Source: Kaistia soli DSM 19436 (GTDB taxonomy: Bacteria; Pseudomonadota; Alphaproteobacteria; Rhizobiales; Kaistiaceae). Taken from it: a DNA stretch of 64,000 bases. A program made the position numbers and the translations under genes. Under the pieces are notes generated by a model. The model was given only the letters and a program-made list of their open reading frames with translations, was not told the DNA's origin and did no database searches. The stretch spans positions 558,001 to 622,000 of the forward strand of contig NZ_FQUP01000003.1 in assembly GCF_900129325.1 (NCBI RefSeq), in the 5' to 3' direction. Positions 47,098-49,826 of the stretch are shown piece by piece (position 1 is the stretch's first letter; each line of letters starts with the position of its first letter).

Positions 47098-47165
47098 GAT
47101 TCGGATCCCGTCTCCTGCCCGCGGGCCTTGTTTCGCCAGCTGCAGCGCCTCCGTCAATGAAGGAG

Positions 47166-47194
47166 GTGACAAACGCCTGCGGCTCGGCTATAGC
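47166..47194 (+). promoter_or_regulatory. Candidate sigma-70 promoter for the aromatic leader
   Basis: GTGACA (47166-47171) and TATAGC (47189-47194) are separated by 17 bases, a standard housekeeping spacing. Transcription would start about 7 bases further, at 47201-47202, which is the A of the leader ATG or the base before it. Prediction is by eye only. Confidence 0.55.
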
Positions 47195-47201
47195 CTCGCC
47201 C

Positions 47202-47288
47202 ATGAGCCTCTCTGCCCGCACCTTCTTCTTTGGCTGGTACTTTAGCTATCCGTTGCCGGCGGCGGAGGCAGGAGCGCGCTCGAAGTAG
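47202..47288 (+). CDS. Aromatic amino acid leader peptide for DAHP synthase
   Basis: A 28-codon reading frame, MSLSARTFFFGWYFSY and then a Pro/Ala/Gly-rich tail ending in Lys and TAG. Seven of residues 8-16 are aromatic: four Phe, one Trp and two Tyr. It lies 21 bases before a strong intrinsic terminator and 88 bases before the DAHP synthase start. This is the architecture of transcription attenuation by ribosome stalling. There is no Shine-Dalgarno sequence in the 20 bases upstream, and the likely transcription start is at the ATG, which fits leaderless translation as described for rhizobial trpL. Confidence 0.85.
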   Translation: MSLSARTFFFGWYFSYPLPAAEAGARSK

Positions 47289-47309
47289 AAGATCGAAGCA
47301 TCCCCCACC

Positions 47310-47339
47310 AAGCCGCCAAACCGAGTTGGCGGCTTTTTT
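47310..47339 (+). terminator. Attenuator terminator upstream of DAHP synthase
   Basis: AGCCGCCAA (47311-47319) and TTGGCGGCT (47326-47334) form a perfect stem of at least 9 bp around ACCGAG, followed by a T-run to 47339. A GGCGGC within the leader (47258-47263) can pair with GCCGCC (47312-47317), the 5' arm, giving an alternative antiterminator. Stalling at the aromatic codons (47223-47249) would leave 47258 onward free for that pairing. Confidence 0.88.
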
Positions 47340-47376
47340 GTTGGCCGCTGCCGGGAAACTCCAAGGAGCCCGAACC

Positions 47377-48465
47377 GTGCCCGACACCACAGACGATCTG
47401 CGCATCAGCGCATTGAAGGAACTCTCGCCACCCGCAGCCGTGATGGCCGAGTTCCCCCGCACCGATGCTGCGAGCCTGACGGTCGCGACGAGCCGCCGCG
47501 CGCTGCATGACATTCTGCATGGCCGCGACGATCGCCTCGCCGTCGTGATCGGCCCCTGCTCGATCCACGATCCAGAGGCAGCCATCGACTACGCCCACCG
47601 CCTCGTCGAAGAGCGCAAGCGTCTTGGCTCCGAGCTTGAGATTGTCATGCGCGTCTATTTCGAGAAGCCGCGCACAACGGTCGGGTGGAAGGGCCTTATC
47701 AACGATCCCGACCTCGATGGAAGCTTCCATATCGACAAGGGCCTGCGCCGCGCGCGCAGCCTGCTGCTCGAGATCAACAAGCTCGGTCTGCCGGCCGGCT
47801 CCGAATTCCTCGACATGACGACGCCGCAATATTTCGCCGATCTCGTCGGCTGGGGCGCCATCGGCGCGCGGACGACCGAGAGCCAGGTGCATCGCGAGCT
47901 GGCTTCCGGCCTCTCCTGCCCGGTCGGCTTCAAGAACGGCACTGACGGCAATGTGAAGATCGCGGTCGACGCGGTTCTCTCCGCCTCGCAGCCGCATCAT
48001 TTCCTGGCGGTGACCAAGGAGGGACGCTCGGCGATCGCCGCCACGACCGGCAATGACGACTGCCACATCATCCTGCGTGGCGGCAAGGCGCCGAACTATG
48101 ACGCGGCAAGCGTCGATGCGGCTGCCGCTGAACTCGCCAAGGCCGGGCTGCCACCCTTCCTGATGATCGATGCCAGCCACGCCAACAGCCTGAAGAAGCC
48201 CGAAAACCAGCCGCGCGTCTGCGATGAGATCGGCGCACAGATTGCCGCCGGCGATGACCGCATCATGGGCGTGATGATCGAAAGCAATCTCGTTGCCGGC
48301 CGGCAGGATCTCGTGCCGGGACGTCCGCTGGTCTATGGCCAGAGCATCACCGATGGCTGCATCGACTGGCAGACCTCGGTCGGCGTGCTCGAACGGCTTG
48401 CCGAAGCGGTCGCGCACCGGCGCGAACGCAGCCGGCCGGAAGCACGGCTCGCCGCCGCAGTCTGA
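47377..48465 (+). CDS. 3-deoxy-7-phosphoheptulonate synthase (class I, AroF/G/H type)
   Basis: A 362-residue enzyme that condenses PEP and erythrose-4-phosphate, the first step to Phe, Tyr and Trp. It has VVIGPCSIHDPEAAIDYAHRL, RVYFEKPRTTVGWKGLINDPDLDGSF, GSEFLDMTTPQYFADLVGWGAIGARTTESQVHR, CHIILRGGKAPNYD and MIDASHANS. These are class I alpha signatures with PEP- and metal-binding residues. The start is GTG at 47377 with AAGGAG eight bases upstream. An attenuator with a Phe/Trp/Tyr leader precedes it, and tyrS follows. Most alphaproteobacteria also carry a plant-type (class II) enzyme; which isoform the organism relies on cannot be judged here. Confidence 0.95.
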   Translation: MPDTTDDLRISALKELSPPAAVMAEFPRTDAASLTVATSRRALHDILHGRDDRLAVVIGPCSIHDPEAAIDYAHRLVEERKRLGSELEIVMRVYFEKPRTTVGWKGLINDPDLDGSFHIDKGLRRARSLLLEINKLGLPAGSEFLDMTTPQYFADLVGWGAIGARTTESQVHRELASGLSCPVGFKNGTDGNVKIAVDAVLSASQPHHFLAVTKEGRSAIAATTGNDDCHIILRGGKAPNYDAASVDAAAAELAKAGLPPFLMIDASHANSLKKPENQPRVCDEIGAQIAAGDDRIMGVMIESNLVAGRQDLVPGRPLVYGQSITDGCIDWQTSVGVLERLAEAVAHRRERSRPEARLAAAV

Positions 48466-48572
48466 CCGGGTCGCAGGAAACCCGGGTTACAGCAAACCTG
48501 GCCGTCGCTGATGATCTTTTCGGCGGCGGCTGCTAAAGCCTGCCGCGCCACCCACTCTGTCGAGATGATGCC

Positions 48573-49826
48573 ATGACCGCGTTCAAGTCCGATTTCCTGC
48601 AGGTGCTCAGCGAGCGCGGGCTCATCCATCAGATTTCAGACCCTGAGGGACTCGACGCACAGTGCATCAAGGGGCCGATCACGGCCTATGTCGGTTATGA
48701 CGCGACGGCGACCAGCCTCCATATCGGCAATCTGATTTCCGCGACTATGCTGCACTGGTTGCAGGAGACCGGACATCGGCCGATCGCCTTGATGGGCGGC
48801 GGCACGTCGATGGTCGGCGACCCCTCGTTCCGCGACGACCAGCGCAAGCTGCTGACCATCGAGGAAATCGACCGCAACATTGCCGGCATCAAGCAGATCT
48901 TCTCGCGCATCCTGCGCTTCGGCGAAGGGCCGGGCGACGCGATCATGGTCAACAATGCCGACTGGCTGCTGAAGCTCAACTATGTGGAGTTCCTGCGCGA
49001 TGTCGGCCGGCACTTCTCGGTCAATCGCATGCTTTCCTTCGATTCGGTGAAGCTGCGGCTCGATCGCGAGCAGTCGCTCTCCTTCCTCGAATTCAACTAC
49101 ATGATCATGCAGGGCTACGACTTCGTCGAGCTCAACCGCCGCTATGACTGCGTGCTGCAGATGGGCGGCTCCGACCAGTGGGGCAACATCATCAATGGCG
49201 TCGACCTGGCCCACCGGATGGACCGACCGCAGCTCTATGCGCTGACGACGCCGCTGCTCACCACCTCATCGGGCGCCAAGATGGGCAAGACGGCGAAGGG
49301 CGCCGTCTGGCTCAATGGCGACCTCTTCAGCCCCTATGATTTCTGGCAGTATTTCCGCAACACCGAGGATGCCGATGTCGGCCGCTTCCTGAAGATCTTC
49401 ACGCGCCTGCCGCTGTCCGAGATCGCGCGGCTCGAGGCGCTTGGCGGTGCCGAGATCAACGACGCGAAGAAGATCCTGGCCACCGAGGCGACCGCGGTCG
49501 TGCATGGCCGCGGAGCCGCCGAAGCCGCCGCTGAGACGGCGCGCCAGACCTTCGAGGAAGGCGCGCTCGCCGAGTCGCTGCCGACCATCGAAGTTCCTGC
49601 AGCCGAATTCGAGGCAGGGATTGGCGCGCTCGGTCTTTTCGTCCGCGCCGGCCTCGTCGCCTCGAACGGCGAGGCACGGCGCCAGATCAAGGGCGGCGGC
49701 CTCAGGGTGAACGATGCCGCCCTTTCCGACGAGAAGGCGATGATCGGCCCCGGCCTGCTGACGCCTGAAGGCGTCGTCAAGCTTTCGCTCGGCCGCAAGA
49801 AGCACGTCCTGATCCGCCCGGCCTGA
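48573..49826 (+). CDS. tyrS: Tyrosyl-tRNA synthetase
   Basis: A 417-residue class I aminoacyl-tRNA synthetase. It has the HIGH-type motif HIGN at residues 50-53, the KMSKS-type loop [10 protein letters not shown] around 233, [16 protein letters not shown] for tyrosine binding, and a C-terminal S4 RNA-binding domain ([19 protein letters not shown]). It lies 107 bases after DAHP synthase with no obvious terminator in between. Confidence 0.97.

Follow-up and report, generated by a model that had tools for sequence, protein, structure and literature searches.

A conserved aromatic leader peptide and predicted transcription attenuator upstream of type I DAHP synthase genes in alpha- and betaproteobacteria and Xanthomonadales

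A short open reading frame dense in codons for phenylalanine, tryptophan and tyrosine, followed by a terminator and then by the gene for a type I DAHP synthase, is found in the window analysed here (64,000 nucleotides of Kaistia soli DSM 19436, contig NZ_FQUP01000003.1), and the same arrangement recurs in alpha- and betaproteobacteria and in Xanthomonadales. Sequence and comparison give us high confidence that this region is a ribosome-mediated transcription attenuator controlling the synthase, and it apparently belongs to a genuine, conserved attenuator family that has gone unreported. Aromatic amino acid synthesis begins with DAHP synthase, which is best known for its allosteric feedback and, in enteric bacteria, for repression by TyrR and TrpR; if this reading is true across the three groups, many plant symbionts and soil bacteria control that entry step by tRNA charging. 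The mechanism itself is textbook; the three-amino-acid run, the breadth of occurrence and the probable leaderless start in alphaproteobacteria lift the family above a routine new member of its class, and the element offers a convenient system for testing whether three amino acids can be integrated by a single ribosome-driven switch.

In the proposed mechanism, RNA polymerase would start at or beside the leader AUG, and a ribosome would translate the 28-codon leader. In a shortage of charged Phe-, Trp- or Tyr-tRNA, translation would pause with the ribosome within codons 8-16 and covering an RNA segment (segment 1), and the freed segment 2 (47255-47269) would pair with segment 3 (47310-47319); because segment 3 would then be paired with segment 2, the terminator formed by segments 3 and 4 could not form, and the synthase would be transcribed. 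With enough charged tRNA, the ribosome would pass and leave, segment 2 would pair with segment 1 or be briefly covered, and, with segment 2 so occupied, the terminator would form and a short RNA ending near 47339 would be released. An earlier, sequence-only reading of the window had proposed the same course of stalling, antiterminator formation and synthase expression, and that proposal is supported, at the level of sequence, by 19 of 19 relatives, by compensatory changes, and by modelled refolding in 78 of 78 loci among the matches listed.

Leader peptide, promoter and adjacent genes

The leader reading frame (28 codons and a stop, 47202-47288, forward strand) translates to MSLSARTFFFGWYFSYPLPAAEAGARSK, a translation that confirms the run Phe-Phe-Phe-Gly-Trp-Tyr-Phe-Ser-Tyr at residues 8-16, as first read; its codons (47223-47249, forward strand), the putative regulatory codons, encode an aromatic run that is conserved. 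Across six frames of the 64-kb window this run is the sole nine-residue stretch with at least seven aromatic residues, and no such stretch arose either in five block shuffles of the window or in 5000 shuffles of the 206-nt upstream region; aromatic residues make up 26% of the leader, as compared with 4.4% of the synthase. No leader peptide profile was matched in NCBIfam (11 peptides) or Pfam (10 peptides). An in-frame start further upstream, at 47157, which would produce a 43-residue frame, is less likely: it would precede the promoter, and a relative (L002) has isoleucine at that position.

That promoter comprises a -35 hexamer GTGACA (47166-47171, forward strand, with the same motif and spacing in relatives), a 17-nt spacer, and a -10 hexamer TATAGC (47189-47194, forward strand, placed from the sequence and from comparison with alphaproteobacterial loci) that ends 7 nt before the leader ATG. 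Among the matches listed, a GTGACA-like box separated by 17 nt from a TA-rich -10 box that ends 6-9 nt before the ATG is present in 35 of 38 alphaproteobacterial loci, which were assigned to that class by hand and partly on kinship, as compared with a shuffle average of 0.1 for such a promoter at 5-9 nt. The same arrangement stands upstream of most of the loci L001-L019, L023-L030, L133 and L134, the last two having been read by eye. A stricter generic promoter scan of the window listed no promoter at 47166-47194. Since the promoter lies 6-9 nt before the ATG, transcripts would be expected to start at or beside it; in alphaproteobacteria the leader AUG is thus probably the very 5' end of the mRNA, which would in that case be leaderless. 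In other lineages the promoter signal is weaker and passes in 13 of 31 scored loci (5.95 in shuffles), seven of the 13 at 7-9 nt, among the matches listed. Xanthomonadales carry a TATCA(A/C) box 7-9 nt before the ATG, Massilia-type loci have their box 25-27 nt from the ATG, and in Burkholderia-type loci it lies farther still (by eye); because this distance varies between lineages, the leaderless feature appears to be lineage-specific.

Downstream of the leader, a Shine-Dalgarno-like AAGGAG (47363-47368, forward strand) precedes the GTG start of the type I DAHP synthase gene (AroFGH family, 47377-48465, forward strand), the presumptive regulated gene, whose product scores 522.3 bits against TIGR00034 (cut-off 173.2). 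The K. soli genome encodes one type I and one type II DAHP synthase; no leader was found beside the type II gene (L022), where the 400 nt upstream contain no run of five T's and the nearest aromatic stretch, of four in nine, ends 411 nt upstream. The neighbouring gene tyrS (48573-49826, forward strand, TIGR00234) had been suggested to share the read-through transcript, and read-through into it is possible, since the terminator scan found no terminator between the two genes (48466-48572). However, tyrS occurs in the flanks (approximately 1.5 kb for the relatives and up to 2.5 kb for the named genomes) of 13 of 99 loci among the matches listed, all of them from the same genus as the window, and is therefore rejected as part of the system; anmK, like tyrS, was found over the same flanks only in these 13 own-genus loci, again among the matches listed.

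Distribution and linkage to the synthase

A search of 61 genomes of close relatives, including that of K. soli itself, produced matches in 20 genomes at 21 places, from which 19 full-length loci (the window's among them) were kept and two short, weak matches (L020 and L021) were left out. Close relatives lacking the aromatic run or the terminator, which the sequence-only reading had named as evidence against its model, were looked for, and all 19 loci were found to have an aromatic leader frame together with a CCGC(C/T)-type terminator; their leader sequences differ, as illustrated by MTFAATTYAWYFSYPLALAEVGVRAV and MITTATFFWYFSYPLPAEAIARV.

A wider survey of named genomes gave at least 80 loci, representing the nearest part, and 99 loci together with the relatives. 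Among the matches listed, 84 of these 99 loci have a reading frame with at least four aromatic residues in nine, and 78 of the 84 also have the terminator; the loci with both elements, in which the order of elements is constant and their spacing narrow, belong to alpha- and betaproteobacteria and to Xanthomonadales (among them Devosia, Bradyrhizobium, Mesorhizobium, Methylosinus, Caulobacter, Burkholderia and relatives, Massilia and relatives, Bordetella, Xanthomonas, Stenotrophomonas, Dyella and Rhodanobacter). On a synthase tree built by a quick method from 99 rows, also among the matches listed, a split divides the rows into sets of 85 and 14, and the leader is present in 79 of the larger set and in 1 of the smaller, which includes the Enterovibrio and Serratia enzymes; for this comparison L031 and L077 were scored as leader-bearing by eye, and L087, with only 61 nt upstream, as being without a leader. 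The leader label requires at least eight changes on the tree, so that losses or gains have occurred, between which the tree does not distinguish.

Several individual loci deserve separate description. In Candidatus Burkholderia humilis (L031) the leader seems to be shifted out of its usual frame, possibly as a sign of decaying regulation. Two Paracoccus loci (L133 and L134) carry synthase and leader, with compensated antiterminator and terminator arms, on plasmids of 654 and 672 kb; in the incomplete gene table of PLSDB neither plasmid has an entry at the leader. The laboratory strain Paracoccus denitrificans PD1222 has the element. Proteobacterial-type DAHP synthases are also present in metagenome-assembled genomes from two other phyla, an Anaerolineae (L097) and a Melainabacteria (L078), as a result of either transfer or binning error; L097 has an aromatic reading frame upstream without the usual terminator.

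Rfam 15 gave no match above the gathering score in 18 relatives, and in the window a single unrelated match (E 4.5) below its gathering score. For this element without an Rfam match, the covariance model R1, built from 44 sequences with terminator pairs only, is usable. In 240 genomes of the class, R1 gave six strong matches (at least 93 bits), corresponding exactly to the six genomes that have this synthase, in one of which (G589) leader and synthase are on different contigs; weak matches (at most 35 bits) in 57 genomes of the class look like bare terminators, and no synthase was found near them in any of 24 loci. When applied to 398 Pseudomonadota genomes, the model matched 48 at E<=1e-9, once each, and the best 30 of the 48 loci contain the synthase in 30 of 30 cases and, by script, an aromatic leader within 230 nt in 27. 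Three strong matches with synthase (L189, L191 and L192) have no aromatic reading frame that the script could find within 230 nt. Because R1 was built from such loci their recovery was to be expected; what is informative is that the matches are linked to the synthase and occur once per genome. A DNA pattern for WYFSYP-like leaders matched 34 of 397 genomes of the order, and its reversed control approximately 37, so that only the gene context of the matches is informative; of 30 loci from the 34 pattern matches, 21 precede the synthase and share TGGTA(C/T)TTTAGCTATCC, while nine look like chance matches.

Terminator, antiterminator and their covariation

The terminator first described as a 9-bp stem with a T run at 47311-47339 was found, with ten pairs and a loop of six, as a stem at 47310-47335 followed by T's. 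Its 5' arm AAGCCGCCAA (segment 3, 47310-47319, forward strand), also the predicted partner of the antiterminator, was placed by terminator scan and covariation, and its 3' arm TTGGCGGCTT with the T run (segment 4, 47326-47339, forward strand) by the same evidence and by the sequence. Folded alone, the terminator has an energy of -16.8 kcal/mol (z -4.45; none of 200 shuffles as stable); approximately one terminator-like site is expected by chance in the 1551-base stretch scanned, and the weight of the terminator therefore rests on position and conservation.

Segment 2 (GCCGGCGGCGGAGGC, 47255-47269, forward strand), the candidate antiterminator half, was delimited by folding and comparison, and its core GGCGGC is at 47258-47263, where the first reading had placed it. 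The same reading held that a ribosome at the stop (47286) would cover this core, which proved incorrect, in that a ribosome of ordinary footprint would reach back only to about 47268. Among loci the segment is most often CTGGCGG, encoding Leu-Ala-(Glu/Asp), and since it resembles the 3' arm of the terminator it would compete for the 5' arm. The core starts 7-20 nt past the last aromatic codon, and at 11 nt in 39 of 73 loci among the matches listed; five of the 78 loci lack an (A/G)GCGG core and are excluded from this count.

Segment 1 (47206-47219, forward strand), found by folding of the window, would pair with segment 2 when the ribosome is absent. When free, the window RNA as far as the terminator loop adopts the 1:2 fold, and with its first 48 or 57 nt hidden it folds 2:3 (-24.3 or -20.3 kcal/mol), the exposed pieces showing no significant stability against shuffles (z -1.47 and -0.86). 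The overall folding energy of the leader RNA is unremarkable and uninformative (z 0.39), and the GGCGGC/GCCGCC helix of the window is equalled or beaten in 13 of 200 shuffles; for these two reasons the window alone is no proof of a switch.

Across the 78 loci among the matches listed, in folds made without shuffle control, a modelled stall on at least one aromatic codon leaves at least four antiterminator pairs in all 78, and stalls on every aromatic codon still permit the antiterminator in 75; the best fold of the free full RNA has the terminator in 75 loci and not in three, and segment 2 pairs with segment 1 in 39. For 36 of 78 loci, among the matches listed, more than 10 of 200 simple shuffles yield a 2:3 helix at least as good as the native one. 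Segment 2 is probably masked by segment 1, a pairing to which covariation lends no support. The stop codon lies 5 nt past the segment 2 core in six Oxalobacteraceae loci, where a ribosome at the stop would cover the core, and 20 nt past it in 35 of 76 loci among the matches listed, where masking would therefore have to be provided by segment 1 or by passing ribosomes. Stop-codon distance did not separate loci with the 1:2 helix from those without it (76 of 78 loci, two dropped, among the matches listed), and the 1:2 hairpin, counted on a 44-sequence alignment, is 66.6% paired, double changes being no more frequent than expected.

That alignment (A2) comprises 42 of 57 non-redundant references and two Paracoccus rows, and omits 15 references, including all nine Oxalobacteraceae rows; the 2:3 and 3:4 counts were therefore repeated on a MAFFT alignment (A3) of 59 sequences, containing all 57 references and the two Paracoccus rows, and the 1:2 count and the covariance model come from A2 only. 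In A3, the 2:3 helix is paired in 82.6% of cells, as compared with 17-49% when slid by 1-3 columns, and displays 21 double-change cells, where shuffles average 6.1 and none of 500 reaches that number; the terminator helix is 95.1% paired, with 37 double-change cells against 11.8. Such cells are common to related rows, and independent events are therefore few. On strict measures the 2:3 helix has four pairs changed on both sides against 2.4 (44 of 500 shuffles as high) and ten further pair types against 8.4 (71 of 500), so that two of the five covariation measures for the antiterminator are not clearly above shuffles; the terminator has three double-change pairs against 2.3 (209 of 500) and eight pair types against 6.7 (105 of 500). 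In 41 of the 59 sequences the two bases of the outermost pair (column 66 with 132) do not match. In A2, the 2:3 helix is 83.0% paired with 10 double changes against 2.9, and the terminator 96.9% paired with 21 against 5.7, the strict measures being at chance for both.

The clearest compensatory changes are those of the Paracoccus plasmids, which were reached by a separate route, and in which the arm CCGCTGG accompanies a segment 2 of CCAGCGG, most loci having CCGCCAG with CTGGCGG. In a swap test with segment 2 chosen blind to the terminator, 160 of 312 flank pairs were obtained against a swap mean of 146.1 (0 of 2000 as high). When the peptide was kept and synonymous codons were redrawn, p<=0.05 was reached in just 7 of 78 loci (median p 0.26; window p 0.12; among the matches listed); because a synonymous redraw often pairs equally well, the peptide and RNA constraints are confounded, and part of the RNA pairing appears to come free with the peptide, or the reverse. 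Pairing and comparison together indicate that the 2:3 antiterminator would exclude the terminator.

Amino acid input, alternative readings and known leaders

Among the matches listed, the leader carries codons for all three pathway products in 61 of 78 cases, for Phe and Tyr without Trp in 16, and for Phe and Trp without Tyr in one; residue totals over these 78 leaders are 247 F, 191 Y and 67 W. We infer control by all three amino acids, which would carry equal weight. A possible but clearly less probable reading is that the same attenuator operates with only one or two effective aromatic amino acids, the others being neutral or concerned with timing: the 16 leaders without Trp and the predominance of Phe would fit it, as would AroR of Corynebacterium glutamicum, which has Phe-Tyr-Phe yet, in the accessible text of its description, answers Phe limitation and not Tyr limitation (PMC11802643), but the 61 leaders keep all three residues, with Trp within the run in distant lineages, the segment 2 core follows all of the aromatic codons, and a modelled stall at any of these codons permits the antiterminator in 75 of 78 loci among the matches listed.

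Several genera (L106-L118, L125-L132) from two families of the order share TTTAGCTATCC (Phe-Ser-Tyr-Pro) in their leaders, nucleotide for nucleotide, and a Methylosinus leader has it too. A control by all three amino acids could be extended to a widespread, undescribed proteobacterial OR gate with three inputs, in which a leaderless mini-mRNA would sense when Phe, Tyr or Trp runs short and switch on the shared first step of the pathway, its released RNA or peptide also acting in trans in the manner of rnTrpL/peTrpL; we regard this extension as unlikely. Also unlikely is the reading that the leader peptide or the released short RNA also acts in trans, like Sinorhizobium rnTrpL/peTrpL, and that conservation reflects that role too. 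The conservation of some non-aromatic residues and codons, as in the TTTAGCTATCC shared across genera, and a probable leaderless start like that of rnTrpL both bear in its favour, but the conservation of Leu-Ala-Glu is largely explained by the RNA segment encoded there, and the C-terminal leader residues differ between lineages. That the frame encodes a small functional protein, or is a chance frame beside an unrelated terminator with no attenuation, is highly improbable: it could draw on the fact that peptide and RNA conservation are not fully separable, but 0 of 5000 shuffles give the aromatic run, element order is constant and spacing narrow, and there are both linkage to one enzyme in the loci checked and compensatory changes between leader and terminator.

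The preferred reading, a ribosome-mediated attenuator, places the element beside the pheL, trpL, ilv and thr leaders of Escherichia coli, in which mutually exclusive hairpins are driven by ribosome position, and which serve other genes and amino acids. Since more than one amino acid acts on the ilv and thr leaders, combined sensing, which the sequence-only reading had set against classic leaders for single amino acids, is not new. That reading knew of no published description of this particular leader, and none was found in the accessible portions of the open-access literature; DAHP-synthase leaders as such are published for C. glutamicum and Acholeplasma. An aroR leader before aroF of C. glutamicum was reportedly treated by Neshat et al. 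in 2014.

A search of accessible open-access texts for a description of the proteobacterial leader family found none. The main text of a survey of premature terminators (PMC2965389) mentions neither DAHP, phenylalanine nor aromatic, and such a leader is unmentioned in the accessible text of a Streptomyces lividans survey (PMC8079986), a Bradyrhizobium start-site map (PMC4842269) and a study of the S. meliloti small proteome (PMC10117765). In the portions available, other sources name TyrR and TrpR as the repressors acting on aroF and aroH of E. coli (PMC11802643), put forward a leader hypothesis for aroF of E. coli and Shewanella (PMC2659441), and report putative attenuators before a Vibrio DAHP synthase-tyrA operon (PMC1173090).

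Three described systems are closest to the present one, as judged from the accessible text of their sources. The C. glutamicum aroR leader before aroF (PMC4046766, PMC11802643) combines, as is predicted here, an aromatic leader peptide and attenuation before a DAHP synthase gene; it differs in belonging to an actinobacterium and in having Phe-Tyr-Phe without Trp, a distinction drawn from its description. The Acholeplasma uORFC-13-1 motif before aroF (PMC8632094), with 24 examples confined to Acholeplasma and environmental sequences, shares a leader frame with a Phe codon and a terminator before a DAHP synthase gene; unlike the element described here, it is presented with at least one Phe codon, and no run of three amino acids is described for it. 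The rnTrpL/peTrpL system of S. meliloti senses Trp only, lies upstream of trpE(G), and has a demonstrated function in trans (PMC7298713); like the attenuator predicted here, it is alphaproteobacterial and ribosome-mediated, and its transcript is reported to start at the leader ATG (PMC7298713, PMC10117765), as is predicted for the leader of K. soli.
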